This document shows positions 31,379 through 49,173 of a DNA stretch of 64,000 nt, piece by piece. Numbering within the stretch: the stretch's first letter is position 1; each line of letters begins with the position of its first letter. This DNA comes from Gammaproteobacteria bacterium (lineage in GTDB: Bacteria; Pseudomonadota; Gammaproteobacteria; Steroidobacterales; Foliamicaceae). Location: contig WTGP01000018.1 of NCBI GenBank assembly GCA_011523505.1, forward strand, positions 431,777 to 495,776. The letters are read 5' to 3'. The translations under genes and the position numbers were made by a program. The notes beneath the pieces are model-generated. The model had not been told where the DNA came from, ran no database searches, and worked only from the letters and a program-made list of their open reading frames with translations.

Positions 31379-31942
31379 ATGAAGACGGTAGGCGGCGCGT
31401 TTCTTGCGGTGGGCGCTTTGCTGGTGGGAACGGCTTTTGCGGATGACGTGCGAAACGAATTGCTGCGTTGCGCGCAACTCCAGGACGCGCAGGTGCGTCT
31501 GGCCTGCTATGACGCGCTGGCTTCGGTGAGCGCCACGGCCGCAACCGCTCCGTCCGGGGCGAGCGGCAGCATGACCGACGACGGCTCCGAGGCCGTCGCT
31601 GCCGATGCGCCCGACGCGACCCGCGTTCCCGCAGCCGCCGACCAGGCTGCACCCGAAGCGGAATCCGGACAGTCGCTGACGGACCGGCTGTTCGGCATGC
31701 TTCCCGGCAGGGACGAGGGCGACAACCTGCTCGAATCGCGGGTGGTCGGAGAAATCCGGAACCCGCGCGAGGGCACGCGCTTTACGCTGGAAAACGGCCA
31801 GGTATGGCAGCAGACAGACCGAACCCGGCGCAATTACCGCGCAACCAATCCCAAGGTGGAGATCAAAGAAGGCTTCATGAACAGCTACCGGATGCGCCTG
31901 GAGGGCCTCAACGGACGCATCCGCGTACGCCGCGTGAAATAG
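31379..31942 (+). CDS. Secreted protein with RLACYD motif
   Basis: The ATG at 31379 (GAGGAG upstream) gives a 187-residue protein with a signal peptide (MKTVGGAFLAVGALLVGTAFA). Following this are LLRCAQLQDAQVRLACYDALA, a motif shared by many small periplasmic proteins, a long Ala/Pro/Asp-rich linker (about residues 45-95), and a C-terminal beta-rich domain (RNPREGTRFTLENGQVWQQTD). The latter looks like a small OB- or SH3-like module. No defined function. It converges with the last gene of the catabolic cluster with a three-base gap. Confidence 0.65.
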   Translation: MKTVGGAFLAVGALLVGTAFADDVRNELLRCAQLQDAQVRLACYDALASVSATAATAPSGASGSMTDDGSEAVAADAPDATRVPAAADQAAPEAESGQSLTDRLFGMLPGRDEGDNLLESRVVGEIRNPREGTRFTLENGQVWQQTDRTRRNYRATNPKVEIKEGFMNSYRMRLEGLNGRIRVRRVK

Positions 31943-31945
31943 TCC

Positions 31946-32350
31946 CTATTTCAGGCGGTCGAGCATGGTTTGGTGGGCGGCGTAGGCTTCGTCGAGGCGG
32001 CGGCGGGCTTCGCCGGCTGAGGGGAAGCCGGCTTCGAGACCGGCCAGCATGATGACCGCTTCCATCTCCTCGCGCGTTATGCCGTGGTGGATGCCGGCGC
32101 GCACGAAGTAGCCCACGTCGTGGCGGGCGGCCGTGACGATCCCGATGGCGCACAGGATCATGGTCTTGAGATCGACCACCTCCTGGTCCCAGACCTCGGG
32201 TGCGATGCGCGTCATCAGTTGCCGGTTGAAGTCGTTCTGCTCCAGTTGTTCGCACAACTCCGCACCGTAGTCCGGTCCGAAGATGCGCAGGAACATGGCG
32301 CGGCCGCGCTCAAGCTCGGCCTCGGAGAAGGGTTTGTAGGCGCTGCCCAT
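31946..32350 (-). CDS. Carboxymuconolactone decarboxylase (CMD) family protein
   Basis: A 134-residue all-helical protein of the CMD/AhpD fold. The core helices read LCAIGIVTAARHDVGYFVRAGIHHG followed by ITREEMEAVIMLAGLEAG, the standard CMD order. The CxxC redox pair of AhpD is absent, so a peroxidase-type activity is unlikely and a lactone-decarboxylase or isomerase role fits better. It is the last gene of the eight-gene minus-strand operon, nine bases after the M24 gene. It is paralogous to the CMD protein at 37013-37402. Confidence 0.82.
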   Translation of the reverse strand: MGSAYKPFSEAELERGRAMFLRIFGPDYGAELCEQLEQNDFNRQLMTRIAPEVWDQEVVDLKTMILCAIGIVTAARHDVGYFVRAGIHHGITREEMEAVIMLAGLEAGFPSAGEARRRLDEAYAAHQTMLDRLK

Positions 32351-32359
32351 TCCGGCCGG

Positions 32360-33565
32360 CTAAACGCGGATCAGGTCGCGTTCGAGGTTGTAGAGGCGCT
32401 CGGACCCGTTGGCGGTGATGCGAACGGACTCTTCGAAGAACATCCCGCCCCAGCCGATTTCGTGCAGTTCCATGTCGATGTTCAGGACCATGTTTTCCTC
32501 GATCCGGAAGTCGCCGAGGTTGCCGCCGGCGATGAACGGCACCTCGATGTGGTCCAGGCCGATTCCGTGGGTGAAGGCCAGCTCGAAACTGGGCAATCCG
32601 GCGGCGCGAACAGCCTGGATGACCCGATTGCGCAATTCGCCGGTCTGTATGCCGGGCCGCAGGTTGGAATAAGCCTCGTCGATTCCCGCCATGTACGCCT
32701 TCCAGTAGCGTTCCAGCTTCGGTGAAGCCTCGCCCAGGACCGCGGTGCGCTGCGCGTCGCCCATGTAGCGGCGCCACTTCATCATGCTGTCGAAGCACAC
32801 CTGGTCGCCGGGGCGGATCACGTAGTCCCGCTCGGGCCGCCCGGCGCCGGCGCTCATCGGACCCGCGCCGTTGAAAGTGGCGAACGGGCGGGCGCCCTGC
32901 TCCACCACCCGCACCTCGTAGGCGGTATACACGTCGTTCCAGGTGGCCCCATCGCTGATCGCGGCCAGCGCTGTGCGCAGCGCCGCCTCGTTCTTGACCG
33001 CCGCTTCCTTGAGAATCGCGATTTCATCGGGCGACTTGACCATCCGTATCTCGATCAGCAGATTTCCGGCATCGACGATTTCGGCATGCTCCACGGTGTC
33101 GCCCAGAAGCCCGGCGAACCGGATGTCGTCAAACCCCAGCCTGCCCTTGTCCAGCCCGGTCTCGCTGAGCATGGCGCAGACGGCGCCGTTGATTCCGGCG
33201 TACGGCTCGTCCTCCAGCTCCGCGACCATGCGCCGGATGGCCAGGTCCTCGCCCTTGAGCTCGGTATCCTCGGCAAAGGTATGCACTTTCAGCACGCCGC
33301 CGTACACGCCGAAGTAATACAGGCGCTGGTCCGGCATCCACGTGGGCCGCTGAATCAGTACGGCCGCCTCGATCTCGGTGACCACCAGGCAGGGTGGAAT
33401 GTCGGGATCTCGCGGCAGGATGGCGCAGGCCACCCAGGGGACGTCGTAGAGGAAATCGGTGTCGAAATCGCTCAGGTACAGTACGTTGTTGGGCGTGACC
33501 GCGATCAGCGCGTCGAGCCCGTCGCGCTCCATCAACTCCATCGCCCTCTCGCGATTCAGCAACAC
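32360..33565 (-). CDS. M24 family (pita-bread) metallohydrolase, creatinase/prolidase-like
   Basis: A 401-residue protein with an N-terminal creatinase-type domain (residues 1-165) and a C-terminal pita-bread domain. Metal-ligand candidates are the Asp pair in CFDSMMKWRRYMGD (D-x10-D), His in HGIGLDHIE and Glu in FFEESVRI. The other usual Glu position (VEP in aminopeptidase P) reads NIDME, so Asp replaces it or the following Glu shifts in. Relatives include prolidases, ectoine hydrolase and the DMSP lyase DddP, so the reaction is not predictable. It is paralogous to the M24 protein at 42528-43727. Confidence 0.85.
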   Translation of the reverse strand: MLLNRERAMELMERDGLDALIAVTPNNVLYLSDFDTDFLYDVPWVACAILPRDPDIPPCLVVTEIEAAVLIQRPTWMPDQRLYYFGVYGGVLKVHTFAEDTELKGEDLAIRRMVAELEDEPYAGINGAVCAMLSETGLDKGRLGFDDIRFAGLLGDTVEHAEIVDAGNLLIEIRMVKSPDEIAILKEAAVKNEAALRTALAAISDGATWNDVYTAYEVRVVEQGARPFATFNGAGPMSAGAGRPERDYVIRPGDQVCFDSMMKWRRYMGDAQRTAVLGEASPKLERYWKAYMAGIDEAYSNLRPGIQTGELRNRVIQAVRAAGLPSFELAFTHGIGLDHIEVPFIAGGNLGDFRIEENMVLNIDMELHEIGWGGMFFEESVRITANGSERLYNLERDLIRV

Positions 33566-33580
33566 GCCGAATTCCCCGAA

Positions 33581-34444
33581 TCAGCGGAAGGAGGCGCTGG
33601 CGAAGTAGCTGTTGACGCGATCCTCCCAGTCGTCCACCTTGCCGAAAATACCGGTGTAGTAATCGGCCAGGTAGATGAGCCAGAACGCGCCGCTGATGCT
33701 GCACACCGGACCGTGGCGCACGCCGGGCGGCCGGCCGATGTAATGGTCTTTGGTCAGCACGAGGTCTTCCTTCACGTCCTCGCGCTTGTGGTCGAATGTG
33801 TAGCCGATGTAGCAATCGCCGGCGATCAGGTACAGGCATTCGTTGTGCGGATGGTGTTCGGTGCCCGGATCTATGAAGCCCGGCGCCAGCGCGGTCAGCG
33901 CAATCACCTCTTTGGTGCCATCGTCCTTGCGCAGCCCCTTGGTCAGCACGCCGGGAGGCCGGGCCTCCTGGCCGGTGTTCGGGTCCTTCCAGGTGGAGCG
34001 CTTGACGATGTCCGCCATCGGATCGACCCACGGCAGGTGCCAGGTGTTGGTGCGGGCGATATGCCGGTCGACGTGCGCATCCGTCAGCGAGTCGCCCGCC
34101 TCTTCGAAGGCCAGCGGCCGGCTGGTGAACAGCAGGAGCCTGCAACCGCCGGACGTGCTCGTCGGCCCCCAGGCCATGCCGGCCGGGAAATAGCCGTAAC
34201 AGCCCTGCATCCAGGTTTCGCCGCCGATGTCCAGGGAACCTTCCAGCACGTAGAGGTCGATGTCGGCCTCGTTCCGGCCGCGCGGCAGGGACCAGCCGTG
34301 CGGCAGTTCCATGACCAGGTGTTCGCCGCCGGTCTTGCTCTCGGTGCTCAGGTTGCGGGCCACGGCGCCCGGCGTGTACCCGGAATTGACCGGCCGCGGT
34401 TCTACGGCACTTACGTCCAGGCAGTCCTCCCTTCGCATCGGCAT
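33581..34444 (-). CDS. Bicupin protein (cluster copy 1)
   Basis: A 287-residue protein with two cupin domains, about residues 40-120 and 180-270. The second keeps likely metal ligands in EHHPHNECLYLIAGD and PPGVRHGP. The first (LYVLEGSLDIGGETWMQGCYGYFPAGMAWGP) lacks the usual histidines. It shares the pattern xxLxGDxxxG...RPPGxxHGP with the bicupins at 36144 and 41695, so the three are paralogues. Bicupins can be ring-cleaving dioxygenases, isomerases or lyases. It sits 15 bases upstream of the M24 gene. Confidence 0.8.
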   Translation of the reverse strand: MPMRREDCLDVSAVEPRPVNSGYTPGAVARNLSTESKTGGEHLVMELPHGWSLPRGRNEADIDLYVLEGSLDIGGETWMQGCYGYFPAGMAWGPTSTSGGCRLLLFTSRPLAFEEAGDSLTDAHVDRHIARTNTWHLPWVDPMADIVKRSTWKDPNTGQEARPPGVLTKGLRKDDGTKEVIALTALAPGFIDPGTEHHPHNECLYLIAGDCYIGYTFDHKREDVKEDLVLTKDHYIGRPPGVRHGPVCSISGAFWLIYLADYYTGIFGKVDDWEDRVNSYFASASFR

Positions 34445-34466
34445 CGCGTTGCTCCTTCGTTTTCAG

Positions 34467-35300
34467 TCAGTCCTCAAGCCCCGCCAGCCAGTCCACCACG
34501 GCCTCGCAGCACTCCCTGGGCTTGGTAATCATGCAATAGGTCGATCCCGCGCCGGCGATCTCCGCCTTGTCCACGTCGGACTTGATGGCCAGAAACTCGC
34601 GCATCAGCGTGTCGTGGCTGGCCGAGTCCATGCGCTCGTTCTCGTTGAGCGCACTGTCATCTCCCATCAGCAGGAGCGTCGGGCACTCGATATTGCGGAT
34701 ATCGGCGGTCAGGTCCACGTTGGTATAGGCGTCAAGCACGGACTTCAGCGTGGCCATGTTCACGTTGGCGGCGTATTGCTTCTTGGCCCAGCGCTCGTAC
34801 TTGATGCCCTCTTCGGAATACAGCACGTCGGGCGGAAGCACCACACCCGCATACAGGCGCGAAAGCTGCTCGATGCCGAACACCCTGCCCACCCACCAGG
34901 ATGCCTCGTAGATGTTGCGCCAGGTGTCGTCGACGCGGATGAACGGATAGGCGATCAGCGAGTGCATGCGTTCGGGGTACTTGGCCGCGAAGCGCAGGCC
35001 GATCGACGAACCCGTCGAGGTGCACCATAGCGCCGTGCGTTCGATCCCCGCAGCGTCCAGGATCGCGGCCAGGTCGTCCACCCATCGTTCCACCGAGTAC
35101 GGCTCCGACTGGGTCCAGTCGGACTTGCCCACCCCGCGGTAGTGCCATTGCAGGATCCGGTGATGCGGGGTGAGGTACGGCTCGCAGAACTCGAACTGCT
35201 TGTCCACCAGCGCAAAACCGCCAATCAGCGTGAGCGGCGGATCGCCCTCGCCGCGAACCTCGTACCACAGATTGGCGCCGTCCACGCGTACTTTCGACAT
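34467..35300 (-). CDS. Alpha/beta hydrolase-fold protein
   Basis: A 277-residue single-domain alpha/beta hydrolase. The oxyanion-hole segment is LIGGFALVDKQFE, the nucleophile elbow is CTSTGSSIG with the middle Ser as candidate nucleophile, and the acid is in LLLMGDDSALNE. The usual catalytic His position near the C-terminus, normally GxGH, reads GAGSTYCM, so His appears replaced by Ser. Homology is clear from the family N-terminus and the HYRGVGKSD turn. The protein may be a non-hydrolytic member or use another His. It is the fifth gene of the minus-strand operon. Confidence 0.82.
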   Translation of the reverse strand: MSKVRVDGANLWYEVRGEGDPPLTLIGGFALVDKQFEFCEPYLTPHHRILQWHYRGVGKSDWTQSEPYSVERWVDDLAAILDAAGIERTALWCTSTGSSIGLRFAAKYPERMHSLIAYPFIRVDDTWRNIYEASWWVGRVFGIEQLSRLYAGVVLPPDVLYSEEGIKYERWAKKQYAANVNMATLKSVLDAYTNVDLTADIRNIECPTLLLMGDDSALNENERMDSASHDTLMREFLAIKSDVDKAEIAGAGSTYCMITKPRECCEAVVDWLAGLED

Positions 35301-35316
35301 GCAGTCTCCCCAGCGC

Positions 35317-36141
35317 CTATTGCGGAGAGATTGCCGCGTCGTACTGGTGCACGATCCGCACCCCGTCCAGCATGAACCCCATCGGCATCCAGTATGCGCC
35401 CAGGACTTCCGTCGGCGCCAGCGGCATCAGCTCCTCGTTGTCGGCCCGGCAGAACTCCAGCGACCCCTCGCCGGCCAGCGTCTCGCCCTGCTCAAGCCCG
35501 CTCATCACCATCTGCGTGAGGTCGTGCACCAGGGGTTTGCCCAACGGCGGCACATGGCAGTCGGGAACGTGGCGCATGCAGGTGAGAGGCAGGTTGCGCG
35601 TGTAGAACTCCAGTTCCGCGACGTCTATCACGCGCTGCGGCAAGAACTCCATGCGCATCACGGCCTCGCCGTTGCGGCTGACGACGCGCTTGAGCCGCGT
35701 GCCCACGCCGCCGTCCTGGCTCATGCCGGGCAGCAGCGGATGCAGGCCGCTGGTTTCGATCTCCGCCAGCTTGGAGCAGGCGCCCAGAAACCAGCTCAGC
35801 AGAACCAGCCAGTCGCGGTTGCACCACTGGAAGGTGGAGAACATCGTGCGTTCGCCGTGCAGCCTGCAGGGCAGTCCGATCACCGCAACGTCGTAATGAC
35901 TGCGCGCCGCCGGCCAGTCCGCGGGCTCCACGCCCTCGGGGTAGCACTTGAGGTGCGGGCTCCACACATAGGCCTCGTCGGGCGGATCGGATGGCGTAAG
36001 CGGCTCCGGCAGGTACGCGGCGATCGCATCCGGATCGGTCCGGAAGTGAAACAGCAGAAGGTTGCCGGCAAAGCGCCACGGCAGCGGCTCCAGCATGGAG
36101 GCCGCGCCGTTCGGCGTGAAGGGACGCGTGTATCCGGCCAT
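35317..36141 (-). CDS. Acetoacetate decarboxylase-fold protein
   Basis: A 274-residue protein matching the acetoacetate decarboxylase superfamily, with the core sequence SWFLGACSKLAEIE. In classical ADC this segment is GYPKKLA, where the first Lys forms the Schiff base and the second lowers its pKa. Here the first position is Ser and only the second Lys is kept. Several ADC-fold proteins catalyse aldolase-dehydratase or lyase reactions, so decarboxylation is not assured. The ATG at 36141 lies two bases after the bicupin stop and has a GGAGG before it; the longer in-frame ORF is a shadow. Confidence 0.78.
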   Translation of the reverse strand: MAGYTRPFTPNGAASMLEPLPWRFAGNLLLFHFRTDPDAIAAYLPEPLTPSDPPDEAYVWSPHLKCYPEGVEPADWPAARSHYDVAVIGLPCRLHGERTMFSTFQWCNRDWLVLLSWFLGACSKLAEIETSGLHPLLPGMSQDGGVGTRLKRVVSRNGEAVMRMEFLPQRVIDVAELEFYTRNLPLTCMRHVPDCHVPPLGKPLVHDLTQMVMSGLEQGETLAGEGSLEFCRADNEELMPLAPTEVLGAYWMPMGFMLDGVRIVHQYDAAISPQ

Positions 36142-36143
36142 GG

Positions 36144-36986
36144 CTACCTCCAGTTTCCCCAGAGTTGCGGTTGCGGATCCGGCGCGGCCTGTGCCAGGTA
36201 CTCGCGGCAGCGCGGCGCGCTCCAGTCCGGCTCGGTGAACCGGAAGTCGATTTCCTTCTCGCCGCGGCAGAACCACACGCAGCCGCCGCGCGTGGCCTGC
36301 GGCCCGTGCGGTTTCTCGCCCGGACGGAAGATATAGGAACCCGAAGTGATCATGCCGGTCTCTCCCATAAGGTAATCGCCCTGCAGCAGCACCAGTTCCT
36401 CCCAGGTTTCGTGCGCCTCCAGCCTGGGATCGCACCATCCCGGCGCCTGACGCGTCATCAGCGTGTAGGCGCCGGTGTCCGGATCGCTGCGCAGCCTGCG
36501 CACCTTCAGGCCGGCCCCCGCCTCTTCGCTCGTTCGGCCGGGAAAATCCGGCACAGGCTGCCATGCCATGGTGTTGACGTCCAGCGGCCCGGCCAATCGT
36601 TCTTCCCGATACGCGGCCGCGGGTCCGGAGCCCTGCGAGAGTCCGGCACTGCCTTCGCCCATCCACAGCGCCGCGAACCCGCCGCGGGTCTCGGCGCCGG
36701 CAACGGCAAGCCCCCGGGGGAGGAATGCGTAACTTCCGCGCGCGAATTCGCATTCGCCCAGCCTGAGGTCGCCTTCCAGAAGGAGAATTTCGAGATCGTT
36801 TTCCAACACGCCGCTGTCGTGAGAGCACCAATAGGGTTCGCCTTTCACGAAGAGGCTATTGGCTCCCGAGTCGCCTGGCTGGGCACTGAGAATGGCCGCC
36901 CGCAATCCATGCCCGAATGCAGGCGCCGCCGCCGGCGTCAGCGCCACGCCGTCCAGACGCAGAAATTCAACCCGCGGACGCGACAT
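36144..36986 (-). CDS. Bicupin protein (cluster copy 2)
   Basis: A 280-residue bicupin. The N-terminal cupin (about residues 25-110) includes DLEILLLEGDLRLGECEFARGSY. The C-terminal cupin has RLEAHETWEELVLLQGD and FRPGEKPHGPQ, giving His, Glu and His ligand candidates. Start at ATG 36986, because the upstream extension overlaps the CMD gene. It is the third gene of the operon, 26 bases after the CMD gene and two before the ADC-fold gene. Confidence 0.8.
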   Translation of the reverse strand: MSRPRVEFLRLDGVALTPAAAPAFGHGLRAAILSAQPGDSGANSLFVKGEPYWCSHDSGVLENDLEILLLEGDLRLGECEFARGSYAFLPRGLAVAGAETRGGFAALWMGEGSAGLSQGSGPAAAYREERLAGPLDVNTMAWQPVPDFPGRTSEEAGAGLKVRRLRSDPDTGAYTLMTRQAPGWCDPRLEAHETWEELVLLQGDYLMGETGMITSGSYIFRPGEKPHGPQATRGGCVWFCRGEKEIDFRFTEPDWSAPRCREYLAQAAPDPQPQLWGNWR

Positions 36987-37012
36987 CGATGCCTGGTGGG
37001 GTTGCTCGTCCG

Positions 37013-37402
37013 TCAGCCCGCGCCGAAACGGGCTTCGTGCTCGGAATACACGCGGGTCAGGATGTCGATGGCCATTTCTGCGGCAGGAAAACCGAACTCC
37101 AGACCCGCCAGTAACAGGATTTCCTCTACTTCTTCCCGGGGAATTCCGTGATGGGCCGCCATCTTCATGAAGAATTCCACTTCCTGTTTGTGCGTGGCCG
37201 TGAACATGGCGATGCTGCACAGGATCTTGGTGCGCAGGTCCACCCGGTCCATCTCCCAGATCGGCACCATGACCTCACGCAACTTGGCATGAAACGCCGG
37301 AGGGCGGCTGGTAACGATCCACTGATAGATTTCCTCGCCCTGTTCGTCGCCCCACAGCTTGTGGGTAATCGCCTGAAACCGGCGTTCGAGGTCGTCACTC
37401 AC
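37013..37402 (-). CDS. Carboxymuconolactone decarboxylase (CMD) family protein, second copy
   Basis: A 129-residue CMD-fold protein. The start is a GTG overlapping the methyltransferase stop (GTGA). The core is KILCSIAMFTATHKQEVEFFMKMAAHHG then IPREEVEEILLLAGLEFG, closely similar to the copy at 31946-32350. The CxxC motif is missing here too. The two copies end the first and last parts of one operon, so they may form a hetero-oligomer or act at two steps. Confidence 0.8.
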   Translation of the reverse strand: MSDDLERRFQAITHKLWGDEQGEEIYQWIVTSRPPAFHAKLREVMVPIWEMDRVDLRTKILCSIAMFTATHKQEVEFFMKMAAHHGIPREEVEEILLLAGLEFGFPAAEMAIDILTRVYSEHEARFGAG

Positions 37403-38487
37403 GGCCGCACTCCGATCGTGGCCCACCAGGGATAGGCGCCGAAAAAGTACTCGCCGCCGAAACCCCAGCCGGTCAGCTCGTTGGGCAGCGGCACGTCGCG
37501 AACATCGCAGAAACCGCCTTGCTCGAACATGCTCACGCGGTCTTCGGCCAGGAATCCCGGCAGGAAGGGGTCTTCCATGCGCCGCCCGGTGGAGTCCAGC
37601 AGAAACGCCGAAAGCGGGCTGTATTCCTCCTGCAGCACCTTGAACGGAGGCGATTCCATGATCGCGAAGACCCCGCCGGGGCGCAGCAGCCGGAAGGCCT
37701 CGCGAACGACGGCCGCGCGCACCTTGCCCGGCAGTTCGTGAAACAGCCACACCGCGCTGACCACGTCGAAACTCGCGTCCGGATAGCCGGTGTCCTCGGC
37801 CAGCCGCTGGGTGAAACGGACCTTGTGGCCGCGCGACTCGGCCAGCTTGTGGCCGTACTTGAGCATGGAGGCGGAGTAGTCCAAACCCACCACTTCTGCA
37901 TCCGGGTAGAGCTCGCAATAGGGGAAGGTGCTCTTGCCCACCCCGCAACCCAGATCGAGGATTCGCCGGTAGTCGCCCTTGGGCACCGCGCGGGCGAGGT
38001 TCCAGCCCATTTCGTCGCCGTCGTCGCGGCCCACCAGGAACGGGCTGATCATCCAGTGATAGAGGAATCCGGCGAACTCAGCGTGGTAATTGCCCGGCTG
38101 CGTATGGATTTCGATCTTGCGGTAATAGCGGGGCGTTTCCAGTTCCGGGTCCAGCTCCAGGCTTCCCAGCGCGCCCGGGCGATTGCATTCATCCAGCCAG
38201 GTCCGAACCTCATCGCCCTGGCGTTCGAGTATGTCCAGGATGGCGCGGAACATCTGCGCGTGGTTGTGGCGCTCGAAGAACGCGCCGAAACGGTAGGCGG
38301 CGCCCTGCTCCATCAGCGCGCCCACCTCGCGGATGTCCGTCGGATCGTCCAGCCGGGTCTCGTTTTCGCGATAGTGGGCGCCCATCGCGGGTCCGAAACC
38401 GGTCGAATTGAAGGCCATCAGGCCCCCAACAAAATCAAGCCGCGCCTGCTGCGCGCGGCTGCGCTGAATATCCGGAGTAGCTGTCAT
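37399..38487 (-). CDS. Class I SAM-dependent methyltransferase
   Basis: A 362-residue protein. The C-terminal two thirds form a class I methyltransferase with motif I ILDLGCGVGKS (about residues 196-206), motif II AEVVGLDYS and the post-II region FDVVSAVWLFHELP. The N-terminal 150 residues are helical and probably shape the substrate site. It is first in the minus-strand operon. GGGAG precedes the ATG, and TATAAT on the minus strand lies 27 bases upstream. The target could be the imported compound or an intermediate. Confidence 0.85.
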   Translation of the reverse strand: MTATPDIQRSRAQQARLDFVGGLMAFNSTGFGPAMGAHYRENETRLDDPTDIREVGALMEQGAAYRFGAFFERHNHAQMFRAILDILERQGDEVRTWLDECNRPGALGSLELDPELETPRYYRKIEIHTQPGNYHAEFAGFLYHWMISPFLVGRDDGDEMGWNLARAVPKGDYRRILDLGCGVGKSTFPYCELYPDAEVVGLDYSASMLKYGHKLAESRGHKVRFTQRLAEDTGYPDASFDVVSAVWLFHELPGKVRAAVVREAFRLLRPGGVFAIMESPPFKVLQEEYSPLSAFLLDSTGRRMEDPFLPGFLAEDRVSMFEQGGFCDVRDVPLPNELTGWGFGGEYFFGAYPWWATIGVRP

Positions 38488-38606
38488 CGATGCTCCCAGG
38501 GGAGTTGGACTATATTATAGGGAGGCGTGTTTCGCACGCTGGCTTGATCGGCGCATTGAGGGTGCGCCGTTTTTCTGGGCCGGGACTACAGCATTGAGGG
38601 GACCCT
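38488..38606. promoter_or_regulatory. Divergent control region of the 14-gene cluster
   Basis: This gap separates the two operons. It holds TATAAT on the minus strand at 38514-38519, inside the AT-rich TATATTATAG and about 27 bases from the methyltransferase ATG. A small inverted repeat GCGTG-TTTCG-CACGC at 38525-38539 is a possible operator, and a terminator-like hairpin lies in the plus-strand leader. No -35 matching consensus is seen for either direction, which suggests activator dependence. No regulator gene lies in the cluster. Confidence 0.5.
38549..38574 (+). terminator. Intrinsic-terminator-like hairpin in the TonB receptor leader
   Basis: Plus strand: stem CGGCGCA pairs with TGCGCCG (7 bp, perfect) around the loop TTGAGGG, followed directly by TTTTT. 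It ends 32 bases before the receptor ATG at 38607. Because both flanking operons diverge from this gap, the only plus-strand transcript it could stop is the receptor operon itself, making it an attenuator candidate. It could also block a spurious transcript arising on the plus strand. Confidence 0.5.
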
Positions 38607-41114
38607 ATGAACCTGATTCGCACTACCACCTGCGGCGCCGTCGCGTCATTTCTGATTATCCCGCTGGCCGGCTTCGTCGCGCCGACGGCCTCGGCCCAGA
38701 TGGCCGCGCTCGAGGAAATCGTGGTGACGGCCCGAAAGCGCGAGGAAAGCATCCAGGACGTGCCGCTTTCCATCACGGCGTTCACCGGAGCGGAACTGGA
38801 ACGCGGAGGCTACGTGGACCTGGAGGACATTTCGTTCCGGACCGCCGGCATGCAGTTCAACAACGAGCTGGCCGGAACGCGGCCGGGACGGCTGTTCAGC
38901 AATATCCGCTTTCGCGGCGTCGAGGGCAGCGAGTATTCCACGCTGCAGACCGCGTCGCTGTTCGTGGACGGCGTTTTTGCCCTCCAGGGCGCCCAGACTC
39001 TCGCGCTGAGCGACCTGGAGCGGGTGGAGGTCATCAAGGGGCCGCAATCCGCGGCTTTCGGAAGAAACTCATTCGCCGGCGCCATCAACTACATCACGCG
39101 CGCGCCGGACATGGAGGAATTCTCGGGCAGGATCAAGGTCGATGCCGGGGAGTACGATCAGCATGAGCTGGACGTGAGCGCGGACATTCCCATCGCTCCC
39201 GGAGTGCTTGCCCTGCGTGTCGGAGGGCGCTACTTCAACAAGGGCGCCATGTACCACAACGAAGGGGGCGTCGGCGTGGGCAAGCAGCGCTCGGAGTCGA
39301 TGTTCGCCACGCTTTTCTGGCAGCCTTCGGACAACGCCAGCGTCAAGCTGCGCTACTACCGGCAGGACGACAGCGACGGTCCGGCAGGCGTGACCTTTTA
39401 CCAGGCCCGGCTGCATGACAGTTGCACGGGCAAGACGATGCCCGGGCTGACCACCGACGGACAGCCCACCACGCTGGAGCCGAAGGAGTTCATCTGCGGG
39501 ACCATCCCGGGGCCGGGCACGATCGGCACTCCAAACCCCAGTCTTTCCCTCAACCCGTCCAGCTTTCCCGCCGGTTTCCAGAACTTTATCCGCGAATCAT
39601 TCGTTGAGTCGCCCTCCCAGGTTGAAGGCGTGCCCTACATCGACCACTTCGGAATCGAGCGCGAAATCACCCGCATCAGCCTTGTGGTGGACTACGAGTT
39701 CGCGAACGGCATGTCGCTGGTGGCCACCGCCGCGACCAACGAAAACGCCGCCGCCAATCTGCGCGACTGGGACATGACGCCGGACGAGGCCTGGTACGTG
39801 TCCAATCCGCAGGCCGGCGAGGACGAGAGCATCGACATCCGCCTGTCTTCGGCGCCGGATGCCCGGCTGCGCTGGCTGGGCGGGTTCAATTACTACACTC
39901 AGGAGTTCCTGACCAGTTCCAACGGCGGCGTGTTCGTGGTGGCCTGCGGCAATCTGGGCGCTTTCGGAACGCCCGCGCAGTGCGCCAATCCCGCGCGCAT
40001 ACCGGTTGGCGTGGACGGCGGCGATTTCGTGGACGTGCAAGCCTTCTACGGGTCCGTGTCCTACGACATTACCGAACAGTTCACCGTGGATCTGGAAGCG
40101 CGCTGGCAGGACGACACGCGCAGCGACGGCATTGCCGATTTCGAGATCAATTTCAAGGATTTCCTGCCCCGGATCTCGCTCAGATATCGCATCACCGAAG
40201 ACATGACGGCCTACGTTACGGTTTCGCGCGGCATTCTTCCGGGCGTCATCAACTCCAACATCATCAACTGCAACCCCACGACCTTCAGTGCGCCGTTTAT
40301 CGATCCGCGCACCGGTCAGCCGAGCACCTCTTCGATGTGCCAGCAGTACGTCGATGCGTTGGGCGCCGACGCGGTGGACGTGACGCCGGTGCAGGAGCTC
40401 GACGCCTATGAGATCGGCGTGAAGTCCACCTGGATGGACGGACGGCTGGTCGCCAACGTGGCGGCCTACTGGCAGGAATGGGGGAACGCGCCCTTCCCGA
40501 CCTTCGTGACCGTTTACCGCGACGACGACGGCGACGGGGTCCCCAACACCAACCCCAACTTCTTCCCGGTCAGTACGCCGGGCAGTTCGGAATATTCCGG
40601 CGTGGAGCTGGAAGTGGATTTCCTGATCTCCGAAGACTGGGACGTCAGTTTCAACTGGTCGTTCAACGACAACGAGTTCACCGAGTTCCTCATCCCCCTG
40701 GCGTCCGCCGAGTACGCGCTGGGCACCCGCAACGTCAAGGGGCATCGCTCCAGCCGCTTCCCGAAGTGGTCCGGCAGTGTTTCCTCCACCTATGGCGGAA
40801 CCTTCCAGAATGGCTGGGACTGGTCGCTTCGCGGCGATCTCACCTACATGGGCGAGACCTTCCCGGGCCTGACCAACCTGGCGACGCTGGAGAGCTACTC
40901 GCTGCTCAACCTCCGGTTCGCGGTCGAGCGGAACAACCTGAGGCTGGAGGCATACCTGAAAAACGCGCTGGACGAAGATTACTGGCGCACCGGCCAGGAA
41001 TACACGGACTTCTCGCGCGTGCTGAGCGTCGGTTTCAACTTCAACAGGCTCGGCCTGACGCTGGTGCCGCAGGACAAGCCCACCTTCGGATTGCGCGCCG
41101 CGATCGAGTTCTAG
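38607..41114 (+). CDS. TonB-dependent outer-membrane receptor (cluster)
   Basis: An 835-residue receptor with a signal peptide ending in ASAQ. A TonB-box-like segment (EEIVVTARKREES) comes next, then a plug domain with VPLSITAFTG and VEVIKGPQSAAFGRNSFAGAINYIT. The 22-strand-type barrel ends in a C-terminal Phe (RAAIEF). This is the layout of receptors often called iron-siderophore or pesticin type, but such sequences also import plant or algal metabolites. As first gene of the plus-strand operon it probably brings the cluster's substrate across the outer membrane. Confidence 0.9.
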   Translation: MNLIRTTTCGAVASFLIIPLAGFVAPTASAQMAALEEIVVTARKREESIQDVPLSITAFTGAELERGGYVDLEDISFRTAGMQFNNELAGTRPGRLFSNIRFRGVEGSEYSTLQTASLFVDGVFALQGAQTLALSDLERVEVIKGPQSAAFGRNSFAGAINYITRAPDMEEFSGRIKVDAGEYDQHELDVSADIPIAPGVLALRVGGRYFNKGAMYHNEGGVGVGKQRSESMFATLFWQPSDNASVKLRYYRQDDSDGPAGVTFYQARLHDSCTGKTMPGLTTDGQPTTLEPKEFICGTIPGPGTIGTPNPSLSLNPSSFPAGFQNFIRESFVESPSQVEGVPYIDHFGIEREITRISLVVDYEFANGMSLVATAATNENAAANLRDWDMTPDEAWYVSNPQAGEDESIDIRLSSAPDARLRWLGGFNYYTQEFLTSSNGGVFVVACGNLGAFGTPAQCANPARIPVGVDGGDFVDVQAFYGSVSYDITEQFTVDLEARWQDDTRSDGIADFEINFKDFLPRISLRYRITEDMTAYVTVSRGILPGVINSNIINCNPTTFSAPFIDPRTGQPSTSSMCQQYVDALGADAVDVTPVQELDAYEIGVKSTWMDGRLVANVAAYWQEWGNAPFPTFVTVYRDDDGDGVPNTNPNFFPVSTPGSSEYSGVELEVDFLISEDWDVSFNWSFNDNEFTEFLIPLASAEYALGTRNVKGHRSSRFPKWSGSVSSTYGGTFQNGWDWSLRGDLTYMGETFPGLTNLATLESYSLLNLRFAVERNNLRLEAYLKNALDEDYWRTGQEYTDFSRVLSVGFNFNRLGLTLVPQDKPTFGLRAAIEF

Positions 41115-41150
41115 CGCGGCGCTGACGCTACAACCGTGCAGGAACAGCTT

Positions 41151-41723
41151 ATGGAAACCCGCGACGTACCGCTGGTGGAAGCCACGCCCGAGGCCCTGGC
41201 CGCGTGCGGAGAAATGCTGGGCCGCCATCCCGGCGCGAAGGCCTTGCCGATCCGGTTCTACGAGGGTTCGGTGCAGACCTACCGCCCGGTGGATTTCCAA
41301 TCGGACGAGCAGACCGAGCTCAGCCTCGCACACGTGCGGCGGCGCCCCTTCGAGGTGCACTGGATCGAGCGCCATTTCAAGCACACACAGACCTTCATTC
41401 CGCTGGGCGGCGCGCCTTTTATCGCGGTAATGGCGCCGCCCACGAACGGGGACCTGCCGGACCTCGACCAGGTCCGCGCCTATCGCTTCGACGGCTCGGC
41501 CGGCTTCACGATGAAGCTGGGCACCTGGCACGAGTTCCCGTTCGCGGTGGAGGAAGAAGCCGATATCGTGGTGGTGCTGAGACGCGAGGCGACGCAGAGC
41601 CTGCTCGACACAGACCCCGCCACGGGCGAGGTGCGCGGTCCGGACATACAGAAGCAGGACCTGATAAAGCAGCACGGCGTACGCCTGCGATTCGATGTCC
41701 AGGGAACACGTCGAGAACCTTGA
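41151..41723 (+). CDS. Ureidoglycolate lyase (AllA)-like protein
   Basis: A 190-residue protein whose central region matches AllA. ERHFKHTQTFIPLGGAPFIAVMAPP corresponds to the family's ERHxxGTQAFIP block, and FTMKLGTWHEFPF corresponds to YHxxxWHHPL, with one His replaced by Glu. AllA releases urea from ureidoglycolate in purine catabolism. The altered motif and absence of other allantoin genes suggest a related but different substrate. The ATG at 41151 is preferred over GTG 41136 because AGGA precedes it. The following bicupin gene overlaps it by 29 bases. Confidence 0.75.
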   Translation: METRDVPLVEATPEALAACGEMLGRHPGAKALPIRFYEGSVQTYRPVDFQSDEQTELSLAHVRRRPFEVHWIERHFKHTQTFIPLGGAPFIAVMAPPTNGDLPDLDQVRAYRFDGSAGFTMKLGTWHEFPFAVEEEADIVVVLRREATQSLLDTDPATGEVRGPDIQKQDLIKQHGVRLRFDVQGTRREP

Positions 41724-42504
41724 CTCATCGGCTGTTGCGCCCGTTCCCTGGAATCCTCCGGGACTGACGCGCGGCGCGCAACTGCGCCCGCTCGCCCGGG
41801 ACCCCGCCAGCGGCGGCTTTACCGGACTCGTGGATCTGCCGGCCGGCTTCGACAGCGCCAGCGGCCTGAGTTGTACCGTGGAGATGCGCCTGTTCGTCAT
41901 CGAAGGGGAATTGCAGTTGGGCGAGAACCGTCTCGGACCCGGCGGTTTCTGCTACCACCCGGCCGGCTCCGGACAAGGCCGCTGGCGATCGCCGAAGGGC
42001 GCACGCGCATTCGTCGTTTACCTGGAAAGCCCTGAGTTTCGACCCGATCGAGGCTCCCCCGCACCCGATGCGATACCGTCACTGGACTCCTTCGCCATGG
42101 ACTGGCACAACCCGCTGGACGCCAGCGATCCGTCCCAGGCCTTTCGCCCCGGCATCTTCGTGAAGGTCCTGCACGTGGATCCGGAAACGAGGGCGAGCAC
42201 GCACCTGGCCGGCCTGATGCCCGGCTGGTACGCGGAAGGCATGGAATCGCACCCCGTGTACGAGGAAAACTACTGCCTGCAGGGCGACGTGCTGATCGGG
42301 GAAGTGGGCGATGAAGCGGGCTACACGATGGTGGTGGGCAGCTACCTGTGCCGGCCCCCCGGCATCATTCACGGGCCGCTGGCCAGCAAGAACGGCAACG
42401 TCAACCTCTGCTTCACCCATGGCCTGCTCGGCATCGACTACAGCGAAAACCCACGGTCCATGGAGCTCATCCGCAAGCACCTCCGAAACCACCCCTGGAC
42501 CTGA
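41695..42504 (+). CDS. Bicupin protein (cluster copy 3)
   Basis: A 269-residue bicupin. N-terminal cupin: EMRLFVIEGELQLGENRLGPGGFCYHPAG. C-terminal cupin: ESHPVYEENYCLQGDVLIGE and CRPPGIIHGPL, with His, Glu and His candidates in the same places as copies 1 and 2. It overlaps the AllA-like gene by 29 bases and precedes the M24 gene by 23 bases. This repeats the bicupin-then-M24 pairing seen in the minus-strand operon. Confidence 0.8.
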   Translation: MSREHVENLDSSAVAPVPWNPPGLTRGAQLRPLARDPASGGFTGLVDLPAGFDSASGLSCTVEMRLFVIEGELQLGENRLGPGGFCYHPAGSGQGRWRSPKGARAFVVYLESPEFRPDRGSPAPDAIPSLDSFAMDWHNPLDASDPSQAFRPGIFVKVLHVDPETRASTHLAGLMPGWYAEGMESHPVYEENYCLQGDVLIGEVGDEAGYTMVVGSYLCRPPGIIHGPLASKNGNVNLCFTHGLLGIDYSENPRSMELIRKHLRNHPWT

Positions 42505-42527
42505 CGCCAGACTGCACTCCACATCGC

Positions 42528-43727
42528 ATGCTGGTTAATCTCGAACGCGCGCGCGCCAGGATGGAGGAAGCGGGCCTGGAAGCGATGGTGTGCGTACAGC
42601 CCGTCAACGTCTACTACGCCAGCGGCTACGAGTCCGACTGGCTGTTCGACTACCAGTGGGCCGGTTGCGCGATCCTGCCGCTGTCCGAGGACCGCCCCGC
42701 CACGCTCATCGTTCACGATGTCGAGCTGACCAACCTGGCCGAGCACCCGAGCTGGATGCCGGAATTGCGGGTCTATGAGACGCAGGTGGGCGACGACATT
42801 TTCAGCCACTACACGGTGGATGAGGAAGCCGAACTGGAGGAATCAGACCGCAAGACGCTGGCGCTGATGGAAGAGACCCGCGCCACGGCCAGCACGGGCG
42901 TGGTGGAGGCGATCCTGAAGGCGCTTGGCGACGGCGGCTACCGCAGGCTCGGCTTCGACGACGCGCGCCTGGCCGCGCTTTGCGCCGAACGGCTGTCCGG
43001 CGTCGAGTGCTTCGACCGCCCCGAACTGATGACGATGATCCGGGCGGTCAAGACGCCCGCGGAACTGAAACTGATGCGCGAGGCGGGCCGGCGCAATCAG
43101 CAGGCCTTGAGCGTTGCCATCGATGCGGCGGGCGTGGGCGTGAAATGGTCGGACATTCGCCGGGCCTGGCACCTCTCGGTGGCCGAGCAGGACTGCATGC
43201 CCTGGTGCATCTACGTCGGCGCGGGCCACAAGAGCATGGGCCTGTGGCACGACCACGATTACCCGATTCGCGAGGGCGACCAGCTCTGCTTCGACTCCAT
43301 GCTCACATGGCAACGCTACTTCGGCGACATGCAGCGGACCTGCGTCATGGGCGCGCCCGGCGCCAAGCTGCAGCGCTACTGGAATGCCGCCTACGCCGCC
43401 GCGGAAGCCGTATTCGACGCCATGCGCCCGGGCGTGAACACGGTGGAATTGCGCAAGCTGGCGCTGGAGGTCGGCAAGCGCGGCGGGATCAAGGGATTCC
43501 GGCATGCCTTCATGCACGGACTGGGACTGGAGCACCTGGAACTGCCCAGCGCTTCTCCGGGCCTGAGCGGGTTCGACCTGGAGGAAGGCATGGTCGTGAA
43601 CATGGACATGGAGGTGTGCGAGATCGGTTTCGGCGGCATTTACTATGAGAACACCCTGCTGATCGGGCGTAACGGCCCCGAATACCTCTGCGATATGCCG
43701 CGCGAACTGATACACCTGCCCTGCTGA
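42528..43727 (+). CDS. M24 family (pita-bread) metallohydrolase, second copy
   Basis: A 399-residue paralogue of the M24 protein at 32360. The candidate metal ligands recur: D-x10-D in CFDSMLTWQRYFGD, His in HGLGLEHLEL and Glu in YYENTLLIG. The variant NMDME again sits where aminopeptidases have VEP. The N-terminal domain (NVYYASGYESDWLFDYQWAGC) aligns with NVLYLSDFDTDFLYDVPWVAC of the other copy. The size matches creatinase and ectoine hydrolase (about 400 residues). The ATG at 42528 gives a start co-linear with the first copy. Confidence 0.85.
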   Translation: MLVNLERARARMEEAGLEAMVCVQPVNVYYASGYESDWLFDYQWAGCAILPLSEDRPATLIVHDVELTNLAEHPSWMPELRVYETQVGDDIFSHYTVDEEAELEESDRKTLALMEETRATASTGVVEAILKALGDGGYRRLGFDDARLAALCAERLSGVECFDRPELMTMIRAVKTPAELKLMREAGRRNQQALSVAIDAAGVGVKWSDIRRAWHLSVAEQDCMPWCIYVGAGHKSMGLWHDHDYPIREGDQLCFDSMLTWQRYFGDMQRTCVMGAPGAKLQRYWNAAYAAAEAVFDAMRPGVNTVELRKLALEVGKRGGIKGFRHAFMHGLGLEHLELPSASPGLSGFDLEEGMVVNMDMEVCEIGFGGIYYENTLLIGRNGPEYLCDMPRELIHLPC

Positions 43728-43741
43728 GCGAACAGAGTCTC

Positions 43742-44020
43742 ATGGCGAAACGTAACGACTGGCTGGGCGACGAGATGCTGGACCGCATGATGAACGTCAT
43801 CATGGGTCTTGCCGAGGAGCTGTACGTGACGCGCGACCGCCTGCAGGTGATGGAGCGCGTGCTGGAAAGCCGCGGCGCGCTGGATCGCGATGAGCTGGAC
43901 CGCTGGAAGCCCGACGAAGGCCAGCAGGATGAAATCCTGCGCGACCGCGACGCCTTCATCCAGGCCATTCTTTCGCGTGCGCTCGACAAGCCTCCCGGGG
44001 ACCCCGGCGCCGACGCCTGA
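43742..44020 (+). CDS. Small helical protein of the cluster, 92 aa
   Basis: I do not recognise this family. The protein is charged and almost entirely helical, with a probable coiled-coil from residue 10 to 45 (EMLDRMMNVIMGLAEELYVT then RDRLQVMERVLESR) and no membrane segment or signal peptide. It lies 14 bases after the M24 gene and 11 before the permease, so it is part of the operon. It may be a small subunit or scaffold of one of the neighbouring enzymes. Confidence 0.65.
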   Translation: MAKRNDWLGDEMLDRMMNVIMGLAEELYVTRDRLQVMERVLESRGALDRDELDRWKPDEGQQDEILRDRDAFIQAILSRALDKPPGDPGADA

Positions 44021-44031
44021 AACCCGTCCAC

Positions 44032-45408
44032 ATGCAAGCTGCACCGACTCGCTTTGCGCGCGTGTTGAAGACGCGCGACGTACTGATGCTCTCATTCGGA
44101 GCGATGATCGGCTGGAGCTGGATATTGATGACCGGCTACTGGGTCGGCAACGCCGGAAGTCTCGGAACATTGATCGCGTTCGCCGCCGGCGGCCTGGTGA
44201 TCGGGTTCATCGCGCTCACCTATGCCGAGCTGGCCTCCGCGATGCCGCGGGCCGGCGGCGAGCACGTCTACACCCACGCCGGGCTGGGGGCCGGCTGGTC
44301 GTTCGTCTGCACCTGGGCGCTGCTGATGGCCTACGTGACCGTATGCGTGTTCGAGTCCGTGGCGCTGCCCACAGCGGTGGAATACCTGATACCCGCGATC
44401 CGTATGGGCGCGCTCTGGCACGTCGCCGGCGCCCCCGTCGACGCGGGGTTCATCCTCGTGGGTCTGGCGGGCGCCGTCGTGATGACCTGGATCAACGTCG
44501 TCGGCATCCGGACCGCGGCGATCGTCCAGGGCATCGTCACCGTCGCAATCTTCGTTTCCGGCGTGGTGCTGTTCGCCGGGGCGGCCGGTTTCGGCCTGCC
44601 CGAACTGGCGGAACCGAAAATCGCCGTTCCGGCCACCGGCATTCTCACCGTCCTGATCATGGTCCCCGCCCTGCTGGTCGGATTCGACGTGCTTCCGCAG
44701 TCGGCGGAGGAAATCGACCTTCCGCCGAAGCGCATCGGGCGATTGCTGATCGTCTCCCTGGTCATGGCCGTGGCCTGGTACGGCGCGATCGCCTGGTCGG
44801 TGGCGGTGGCGCTCACCCCGGAGGAGCTGGCCGGCGACGGGCTGATTACGGCGGATGCGGCGAAGAAGCTCTGGTCCCTGGCCGCGGGCGGCTCCTGGGC
44901 CGGCGTGGCGCTCACGATCGGCGGTATCGGCGGCGTGCTCACAAGCTGGAACGCCTTCATTATCGGCGGCAGCCGCGTGGTCTTCGCCCTGGCCAAATCA
45001 GGCAGCCTGCCCGCCGTGTTCGGGCGGCTTCATCCGCGCTACAAGACGCCCTATGTTGCCGTGCTCGCGATCGGACTGCTGAGCTGCATTTCGCCATTGT
45101 TCGGGCGGACGATACTGGTGTGGCTGATCAACTGCGGCAGTTTTGCCGTTGTGGCCGCCTACCTGTTCGTGCCGATCGCTTTCCTGGCCCTTCGCCGAAG
45201 CCAACCCGACCTGCCCCGGCCCTACAAATTGCGCTATCCGCGGTTCGTAGGCATATCGGCCATCGTGCTGGCCCTCGGCCTGCTCTGCCTGTTCATGCCC
45301 TTCAGCCCGTCCAGCCTGGTCTGGCCACAGGAATGGGGCATCGTGCTGGGCTGGGGCGCTGCTGGCCTCCTGGTCTGGTTCACCCGCCGGACTAAACCCC
45401 CTGCTTGA
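44032..45408 (+). CDS. APC superfamily amino acid/amine permease
   Basis: A 458-residue permease with twelve membrane helices. The first helix motif is [11 protein letters not shown], a variant of the APC GxG unwound substrate site, and [21 protein letters not shown] in helix 3 is diagnostic of the superfamily. It is the last gene of the plus-strand operon and overlaps the 3' end of prfB by 17 bases in convergent orientation. It most likely carries the cluster's substrate, probably an amino acid or other amine, across the inner membrane. Confidence 0.88.
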
Positions 45409-46487
45409 GGCCCGCTTCGATAAACGGGCCCAGGGCGCCGTTCAGGACTGCCGTCGGGTTGCCGGACTCCACGCCGGTGCGCAGGTCCTTGACCCGCGAC
45501 TGATCGAGCACGTACGAGCGGATCTGGTTCCCCCAGCCGATTTCGGCCTTGCTGTCTTCCAGGGCCTGCTGCTCCGCCCGCCGCTCGCGTTCGGCCAGCT
45601 CGAATAGCTTGGCCCGCAGTTGCTTCATGGCCGTGGCCCGGTTCTTGTGCTGCGAGCGCTCGTTCTGGCACTGCACGACGATGCCCGTTGGCTGGTGGGT
45701 AATGCGAACCGCGGATTCGGTGCGGTTGACGTGCTGGCCCCCGGCGCCGCTGGCGCGGTAAACGTCGATTCGCAGATCGCCGGGATCCACTTCCACCTCG
45801 GCCTCCTCCTCGATCTCCGGCGAGACGAAAACGCTGGCGAACGACGTGTGCCGGCGGGCCCCTGAATCGAACGGCGACTTTCGCACCAGGCGGTGCACGC
45901 CGGTCTCGGTGCGCAGCCAGCCGTAGGCGTGATCGCCGCGCACGTGAACGGTGGCGCTCTTTACTCCGGCGACCTCGCCGTCGGAAGCCTCGATCAGTTG
46001 CGCATCGAACCTGTTGGCCTCGCAGAACTTGAGGTACATGCGCAACAGCATTTCGGCGAAATCCTGCGCATCGTGCCCGCCGGATCCGGCCGTGACTTCA
46101 AGAAACGCGTTGGAGCCGTCCCTGGCGCCGCCGAACATGCGGCGGAACTCGAGCTTTTCCACTTCGTCCGCAAGCTTCCCGATTCCGTCGCCCACGTCCT
46201 TCAGCGTGGCTTCGTCCTTCTCTTCCAGGGCGAGTTCAAGCAACTCATCCAGTTCGCTGACATCGGCCGCCAGGCGGTCGAGGGTCTGCGTAACCGATTG
46301 CAGGGACGCCCTTTCGCGTCCCAGCGCGCCGGCGGTTTGCGTATCGGACCAGACGGAAGGGTCGGCGAGTTCGGTTTCGACTTCGCTTAAGCGCCGGGCC
46401 TTGCCGGCGTAATCAAAGGTACCCCCTAAGCGCCTCGAGTCGGGCGCCCAGATCGGCAAGCAGCGGCGTAAGCTGAGTCGTTTCCAT
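45392..46487 (-). CDS. prfB: Peptide chain release factor 2 (with programmed +1 frameshift)
   Basis: RF2 recognises UAA and UGA stop codons. The gene is read in two parts: 46487-46416 (24 codons from ATG) and, after a +1 shift skipping T46415, 46414-45392 (340 codons), giving 364 residues against 365 in E. coli. The first part ends in the in-frame UGA used for autoregulation. The second part begins [13 protein letters not shown] and contains the peptidyl-hydrolysis motif [10 protein letters not shown]. The stop-recognition region is in the second domain. Normally lysS follows, but here lysS is about 18.8 kb away on the same strand. Confidence 0.96.
46412..46427 (-). promoter_or_regulatory. 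prfB: RF2 programmed +1 frameshift site
   Basis: On the minus strand the sequence reads CTT AGG GGG TAC CTT TGA T. An internal Shine-Dalgarno-like AGGGGG lies three bases before the slippery CTT codon, which is followed by in-frame TGA. This matches the E. coli prfB shift signal. Low RF2 stalls termination at UGA and lets the ribosome slip forward into the RF2 reading frame, so RF2 controls its own level. Confidence 0.95.
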
Positions 46488-46591
46488 GGCGGCGAAGCGT
46501 ACGGCACTCCCCCGCGCAACGCAACCGCAACGCCGCACTTTCGGAGTGAGCACAACCGGCCTTTTGCAGCAATCGAAAAACACGTGCGACT

Positions 46592-46647: not shown

Positions 46648-49173
<2,526 letters not shown>

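Follow-up and report, generated by a model that had tools for sequence, protein, structure and literature searches.

What is the purpose of a compact block of fourteen genes which combines two metalloenzymes of the M24 family with three bicupins, an outer-membrane receptor and an inner-membrane permease? The block occupies positions 31946-45408 of a 64,000-nucleotide stretch, referred to as the window (G000:C13:431777-495776; contig WTGP01000018.1), of a Gammaproteobacteria bacterium whose genome (assembly GCA_011523505.1) is 3.1 Mb long and 95% complete. We propose, with a probability of roughly 55%, that the block is one conserved system for the uptake and breakdown of a small organic compound. 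The cluster is real, conserved and probably catabolic, with a mechanism that we largely infer. It is also apparently undescribed: an initial annotation made without database searches (the sequence-only reading) knew of no described pathway with this gene set, and our narrow queries of the open-access literature found none either.

All fourteen open reading frames (ORFs) were found again exactly where that reading had placed them, in two tight operons that diverge from a gap of 119 bases (38488-38606). The minus arm has eight genes, encoding, from the gap outwards, a methyltransferase (MT), a carboxymuconolactone-decarboxylase-fold protein (CMD1), a bicupin (BIC1), an ADC-superfamily protein (ADC), an α/β-hydrolase-fold protein (ABH), a second bicupin (BIC2), an M24 enzyme (M24a) and a second carboxymuconolactone-decarboxylase-fold protein (CMD2). 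The six genes of the plus arm encode a TonB-dependent receptor, an AllA-like protein, a third bicupin (BIC3), a second M24 enzyme (M24b), a small protein and a permease. The spacings of -4 to 26 bases reported for the minus arm stand, and those of the plus arm, given as -29 to 36, were recomputed as -29 to 23 bases. Thirteen of the fourteen proteins have a match above a Pfam gathering score, which backs every family named beforehand, barely so in the case of CMD2, and leaves out only the small protein. The ratio of non-synonymous to synonymous substitution rates (dN/dS) is 0.03-0.21 for all fourteen genes in comparison with the congeners G050 and G068, a sign of purifying selection, and the ORFs are thus not due to chance. 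Convergent genes bound the block at both ends, one at 31379-31942, which has no Pfam match above gathering score, and prfB at 45392-46555.

The conclusion that the two operons form one conserved system is supported by their distribution across genomes. In a survey of 296 sampled genomes of the same order, our own included, M24b was matched at 1e-60 or better in ten, namely eight of the same genus, G010, which belongs to another family, and G002. Both M24 genes are present in eight of the nine same-genus genomes listed and also in G010, where they lie 8-9 kb apart, and G002 carries one M24 gene. All fourteen genes were recovered in the fetched stretches of G050, G068 and G080, the last on two contigs whose ends cut off BIC1 and ADC. 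G010 has twelve of the fourteen in the same order; it lacks the AllA-like gene, a major facilitator superfamily (MFS) carrier replaces the permease and the receptor bears only a remote resemblance to that of the window.

A strict scan with two peptide patterns, by which remote members will have been overlooked, covered 84,980 species genomes and gave 17 loci, five at 91-99% identity and twelve at 62-70%. Two of the latter, L046 (the G010 contig) and L040 (from UBA964), hold both arms with the same gene order; in each full cluster BIC2 adjoins M24a and BIC3 adjoins M24b. L050 holds the minus arm as far as the end of its contig. The core of methyltransferase, CMD, M24 enzyme, small protein and cupins recurs in eight metagenome-assembled genomes (MAGs) titled Alphaproteobacteria; in L039, L041-L045, L047 and L049, MT, CMD1 and M24a adjoin and the small protein lies on the opposite strand. 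Of the 12 loci outside the genus, 11 have MT and CMD1 in the same gene run as M24a, directly adjoining it in eight and separated from it by BIC1-ADC-ABH-BIC2 in three; the exception is L048, whose contig measures 4.8 kb and bears M24a, a cupin, an MFS gene and the small protein. MT is 60-68% identical in the non-genus loci, and CMD1 62-77% in 11 of 12. Genes of the two arms are mixed in the alphaproteobacterial loci, where the small protein stands opposite MT in 8/8 and BIC3 orthologues occur within ~7 kb in 4/8. Because both arms recur together and their genes intermix, we conclude, as had been suggested from the sequence, that they are one system; where singly scattered homologues would have spoken against this, linkage was found in distant lineages instead.

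Two of these loci have peculiarities of their own. In L049 (8493-11207) MT and M24a are split over frames, which may mean that the copy is decaying or that the sequence or its assembly is faulty. The 4,787-base contig L048/L029, titled Rhodospirillales bacterium Ww578, appears to be the same as the G002 contig in the order of the window, indicating a label conflict or a contaminant.

The cluster is rare. A search with MT in a phylum-wide sample matched one of 398 genomes, the window's own; in the order of G701, the system was seen in three of 248, a distant relative being among the three. No carrier in culture came to light, as every one of the 17 named records from the pattern scan is titled as a MAG, and a search for plasmid carriage gave no match for M24a at 1e-40 nor for BIC2 at 1e-10. 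The nearest records, MAGs titled Gammaproteobacteria, bear the isolate codes COS2, RHO1 and SB0673, which we take to denote sponge samples.

What, then, could the enzymes do? M24a (32360-33565, minus strand, GTG start; PF00557, 4.2e-30) and M24b (42528-43727, plus strand; 4.2e-31) are pita-bread metalloenzymes 41% identical to each other, and the five metal ligands Asp259, Asp270, His333, Glu366 and Glu378 are invariant in both (four sequences, from the window and G010). Prolidases have a second His-Glu pair after the metal-binding His (HGxGLexHE), which is displaced here: the motif reads HGIGLDHIE/HGLGLEHLE, as against HGVGLEVHE/HGVGLEIHE in 1wy2 and 1pv9. As this pair is not kept, and as PepQ_Arch scores only 75.8 and 79.6 bits against 630, an identity as Xaa-Pro peptidase (M24B) was rejected, and M24a and M24b appear, from their motifs, to be unlike ordinary peptidases. 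The top model for M24a, PRK14576 ('putative endopeptidase'), reaches 106.2 bits against a cut-off of 487. Three members of the M24 family with catabolic use on small molecules were also considered and rejected. The dimethylsulfoniopropionate lyase DddP scores 25.9 and 29.8 bits against 600; according to PMC4108388, it binds two metal ions at the M24 ligand positions, and its extra ligand Asp297 and proposed base Asp377 (six residues after the metal-binding His) correspond here, as placed by spacing and not by alignment, to Met261 and His339, leaving the extra Asp ligand unmatched. The ectoine hydrolase DoeA scores 69.5 and 47.4 bits against 575. Creatinase, which has lost the M24 metal ligands that are kept here, is matched (1chm) at only 6.7e-8.

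The three bicupins, BIC1 (36144-36986, minus strand; 1.8e-16), BIC2 (33581-34444, minus strand; 2.7e-11) and BIC3 (41695-42504, plus strand; 2e-16), match PF14499 (DUF4437) with 60.5, 43.6 and 60.4 bits against a gathering score of 24. Four residues of the C-terminal half, Glu184, His186, Glu190 and His226 in BIC3 numbering, are invariant in 25/25 and 24/24 aligned bicupins (overlapping sets). In a tree which left out one cupin (L045 11196-12170), BIC1, BIC2 and BIC3 each form a supported clade with members from the window genus, G010 and UBA964. M24b behaves likewise in a tree restricted to rows of more than 330 residues, without the split L049 pieces, and in which M24a of L047 and L050 and M24b of L035 run off their contigs or loci. 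Since these four clades span the lineages, the copies must have separated before the lineages did, and each was kept.

The AlphaFold model of BIC3 (mean predicted local distance difference test score, pLDDT, 94) is nearest to 2qdr (template-modelling (TM) scores 0.76/0.72), followed by ChrR, oxalate decarboxylase and 1sfn/1sef/1sq4 (TM 0.60-0.70), which belong to the ureidoglycine-aminohydrolase group. The uncharacterised DUF4437 protein 2qdr, also the nearest solved relative by sequence (E 7.2e-24), is a bicupin like BIC3 but, when aligned, has only one of the four Glu-His-Glu-His residues. The (S)-ureidoglycine aminohydrolase AllE/YlbA shares the bicupin architecture with all three proteins, but we rejected this identity on the basis of TIGR03214, which gives 16 bits against 200 for BIC3 and no match for BIC1 and BIC2.

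Similar departures were seen in the remaining enzymes. The AllA-like protein (41136-41723, plus strand) shares ~100 aligned residues of the PF04115 superfamily with ureidoglycolate lyase AllA, but it falls far short of every AllA equivalog cut-off, its best score being 59.9 bits against 212, and the gene was found in the window genus and in one alphaproteobacterial locus (L045, 38%) only. In ABH (34467-35300, minus strand; PF00561, 3e-10) the catalytic His is replaced (GAGSTYCMI) in 13/13 cluster copies and the nucleophile motif CTST is kept, whereas a non-cluster paralogue in L039 retains the His; with the Ser-His-acid triad incomplete, a PcaD-like serine hydrolase was rejected, PcaD being the nearest model at 64.7 bits against 255.85. 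The genes for CMD1 (37013-37402, minus strand, GTG start, overlapping MT by 4 bases; PF02627, 3.4e-6) and CMD2 (31946-32350, minus strand; 7e-5, 23.2 bits against a gathering score of 23) keep company with this hydrolase-fold gene as those for PcaC and PcaD do in the β-ketoadipate pathway. ADC (35317-36141, minus strand; PF06314, 2.1e-27) has 6eej, 5upb, 4zbo and 4jm3 as its nearest solved relatives and MppR as its nearest NCBIfam model (76.3 bits against a cut-off of 380); the PKK of 6eej and 5upb, the triplet that holds the Schiff-base Lys of acetoacetate decarboxylase, reads CSK in 7/7 cluster copies, one Lys being kept and one lost. Taken together, the active-site motifs of the bicupins, the M24 enzymes, ABH and ADC argue for new substrates or reactions over textbook functions.

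The methyltransferase gave an unexpected result. MT (37399-38487, minus strand) is a class I S-adenosylmethionine (SAM)-dependent enzyme (Methyltransf_25, 2.3e-22, residues 176-272) with an N-terminal domain of its own of ~165 residues (motif EIHTQPGNYH), and its partner is the small protein (43742-44020, plus strand), which has ~100 residues. The METHYLTRANSFERASE module formed by the two is a multi-copy, two-gene unit. In a census with a profile of the MT N-terminal domain we found 12 matches in this genome and 8-14 in four congeners, including G012, where the M24 pair was not found, with only 2 and 3 in G010 and UBA964. All 11 non-cluster matches in this genome adjoin a homologue of the small protein (10/10 stretches, one with two pairs; L152-L161). 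In the class of G701, 19 of 337 genomes have matches; four of them have at least 50 first-look candidates each, of which ten per genome were scored and all match, and the largest number in one genome is 71 candidates (G1288; ten scored). Short alphaproteobacterial loci have the small protein within the fetched flanks in 15/30 cases, compared with 0/8 and 0/12 in controls. The neighbours of the module, mostly identified by eye in L152-L161 of this genome and in L084-L113 and L114-L130 of others (all but parts of L121-L122), are varied and comprise receptors, flavoproteins, hydantoinase-like, Rieske-like and other oxidative genes, as well as household genes. As the pairs stand beside so many different genes, we regard them as a general module that was recruited into the cluster. 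The structure model of MT (pLDDT 73.8; TM 0.46/0.49 to the top match) is too weak for a substrate class to be named; its best PDB matches, DsyB and SgvM among them, are biosynthetic methyltransferases. Narrow queries of the open-access literature returned nothing on the module.

A flavoprotein with an AG(L/I/M)PxAI-type flavin adenine dinucleotide (FAD) motif recurs, by eye, beside such pairs (L152 1901-3331, L156 1437-2993, L159 477-2033, L116 4601-6166, L119 6261-7907 and L121 4482-6029). Another pair in this genome lies beside a bicupin 28% identical to BIC3 (L155 982-1887) and a receptor (L155 2405-4738), possibly a second, smaller system.

Import is the function for which both membranes are provided, and the receptor offers the best outside hint at the substrate. 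The TonB-dependent outer-membrane receptor (38607-41114, plus strand; PF00593, 2.9e-26; PF07715, 3.8e-15) has homologues of 54-57% in seven of eleven genomes searched, of which six carry another, more distant M24 gene within 5 kb and the seventh has its receptor near the start of a contig; in G704 the receptor and an M24a cluster share a contig, ~11.5 kb apart. The permease (44032-45408, plus strand; PF13520, 2.4e-35) is of the amino acid-polyamine-organocation (APC) type, with 174.1 bits against a cut-off of 556.8 for TIGR00909. Receptor and carrier are the least conserved parts of the cluster, and the ligand may therefore differ between lineages.

In relatives the cluster keeps catabolic company, in matches none of which reaches its NCBIfam cut-off. 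The core of L042 has as neighbours an HsaA/HpaH-like flavin monooxygenase (7.7e-81; 271.8 bits, cut-off 450), a short-chain dehydrogenase/reductase and an FAD-linked oxidase. L045 has similar genes by eye, with an HsaA-like homologue at the same place, plus a molybdenum hydroxylase, a beta-keto acid cleavage enzyme (BKACE) and its AllA-like gene. The G010 cluster is accompanied by a Baeyer-Villiger-type monooxygenase, an FAH-family hydrolase and a cytochrome P450, and by eye also by a cyclase-like and an AMP-ligase-like gene; CoA-ligase-like genes beside the cluster in relatives were likewise recognised by eye. These neighbours point to a cyclic or keto-acid-yielding compound, and the phenol monooxygenase homologue in a relative titled Alphaproteobacteria suggests a cyclic or phenolic carbon skeleton no less than an amine. 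The earlier proposal that the cluster imports and breaks down a compound is thus the part that we retain as likeliest, in view of the receptor, the permease or MFS carrier and the catabolic neighbours.

On this basis, a cyclic or N-linked molecule with a β-keto-acid-like product would fit best as the substrate. The compound would be imported by the TonB receptor and then by the APC permease, or by an MFS carrier in relatives. M24a and M24b would each employ a two-metal site and cut a C-N bond or another C-heteroatom bond (most likely) in two successive steps, and the adjoining bicupins, BIC2 for M24a and BIC3 for M24b, would act on the matching intermediate at the Glu-His-Glu-His metal site. 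The ADC-fold protein, the hydrolase-fold protein devoid of the usual His and the two CMD-fold proteins could finish the keto-acid-like skeleton by retro-aldol, decarboxylation or tautomer steps, and MT with the small protein would be a recruited methyltransferase module, not specific to the pathway. If so, the cluster belongs with receptor-linked catabolic clusters, unless its chemistry proves new. Several observations weigh against this proposal. The term 'catabolic' derives solely from the families of the genes and from their neighbours, catabolic operons do not usually include a methyltransferase, and the NCBIfam scores of the ten cluster proteins scanned were all under cut-off in the rows shown, no step having a characterised orthologue. 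For the receptors in the clusters of G010 and UBA964, only piecemeal alignments at 21-36% were obtained, and the family of the carrier changes, both of these clusters having MFS carriers where the window has an APC permease. Finally, M24a does not resolve as a clade of its own, as an open fork joins its copies to the M24b clade and to a single outsider on a long branch.

The alternative that differs from our preferred explanation mainly in the substrate is the catabolism of an aromatic or alicyclic ring, phenolic or steroid-/terpenoid-like, in which a phenol hydroxylase of the relatives would produce a catechol-like ring, the cupins would open it, the hydrolase, CMD and ADC proteins would finish it and the M24 enzymes would remove side chains. 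The HsaA-like monooxygenases of L042 and, by eye, L045, the Baeyer-Villiger-like, FAH-family and P450 genes beside the G010 cluster, the BKACE and molybdenum hydroxylase of L045, and the closeness of ABH to PcaD together with the CMD family are all in its favour. Nevertheless, the window cluster has no such oxygenases, the bicupins match quercetin dioxygenases only marginally (0.0067 and weaker) and ABH lacks the catalytic His of meta-cleavage hydrolases, so that we hold this alternative to be somewhat unlikely. The cluster might instead serve biosynthesis or tailoring, its product being exported or directed at a host and its receptor taking up a precursor or a metal. This would account for the SAM methyltransferase and the MppR-like ADC protein, features typical of tailoring, and for the biosynthetic best matches of the weak MT model. 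Such a role is quite doubtful, given that no assembly-line or exporter gene is found among the fourteen whereas importers for both membranes are, that the neighbours in relatives are largely oxidative and hydrolytic and that MT is part of a module adjoining many different genes.

The sequence-only reading had favoured an amine- or ureide-like substrate, and this part of it, though possible, is not supported. Its fullest form would be nitrogen scavenging, in which a cyclic ureide or a guanidino compound is broken down to urea, glyoxylate or ammonia by the AllA-like protein, AllE-like bicupins and creatinase-like M24 enzymes. The AllA-like protein does match its superfamily at 1.4e-18, the BIC3 model does resemble the structures of the ureidoglycine-aminohydrolase group, MppR is the nearest model for ADC and a nitrilase-family gene lies upstream of the cluster; in sponge symbionts, moreover, the use of creatine has been inferred from metagenomes (PMC6742649). 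However, urease alpha and an over-cut-off urea carboxylase were each found in 0/8 cluster genomes, several of them incomplete MAGs, compared with 3/14 and 1/14 named control genomes; the biotin-carboxylase part shared with urea carboxylase was matched in all eight and in all 14 controls. Neither of the other full clusters (G010/L046 and L040) has the AllA-like gene, and in both the carrier is swapped; the M24 enzymes retain the metal ligands that creatinase has lost. The Glu-His-Glu-His set of these bicupins is likewise unlike the Glu, His, His and Gln of the plant ureidoglycine aminohydrolase. A urea-releasing ureide route is therefore disfavoured, and we consider the whole scheme improbable. 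For mycosporine-like amino acids as substrate, a literature search found nothing, which is no evidence either way. It is least of all credible that two unrelated operons are adjacent by chance: the receptor and carrier vary between lineages, as this would allow, but the arms lie side by side in G010/L046 and L040 and are intermixed in the alphaproteobacterial loci.

Most of the routes by which sponge symbionts and free-living marine bacteria use up dissolved organic matter are unknown, and a cluster that two proteobacterial classes have preserved intact, with several non-textbook active sites, offers a concrete handle on one of them. As a more tentative and rather unlikely extension, uncultured, probably marine Gamma- and Alphaproteobacteria might share an undescribed attack on hard-to-degrade dissolved organics, in which the MT-small protein module, present in a dozen to perhaps dozens of copies per genome, stands beside many breakdown genes. 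The fourteen-gene cluster would then be the most elaborate island seen, where two M24 enzymes that are not peptidases, each paired with a Glu-His-Glu-His bicupin, and a His-less hydrolase-fold enzyme dismantle an N-linked or cyclic substrate through new chemistry. The module provides a testable marker for such a wider strategy. The labels 'creatinase', 'peptidase' and 'ureidoglycolate lyase' would, for these genes, mislead ecological models.

The divergent gap contains two further elements. The nearly palindromic CTATATTATAG at 38510-38520, present in four of five aligned sequences, is a possible shared promoter or operator. A hairpin followed by a T-run (38549-38569, plus strand), which ends 37 bases upstream of the receptor start, resembles an attenuator; in an alignment read by eye, its stem is kept in G050, and also in G080 with a paired change from A-T to G-C.

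Outside the block, a nitrilase-family gene (27554-28792; formamidase/carbamoylputrescine amidase-like, under cut-off) and a Xan_ur xanthine/uracil-type permease (29567-31297) lie upstream. We rejected both as members of the pathway, as the G050 and G080 stretches match the nitrilase and not the permease, and a 20-kb G010 stretch matches neither. Just past prfB lies a second TonB-dependent receptor (46648-49173). The receptor that G050 and G080 have at the same location shares no more than 36% identity with it, which marks this spot as variable.

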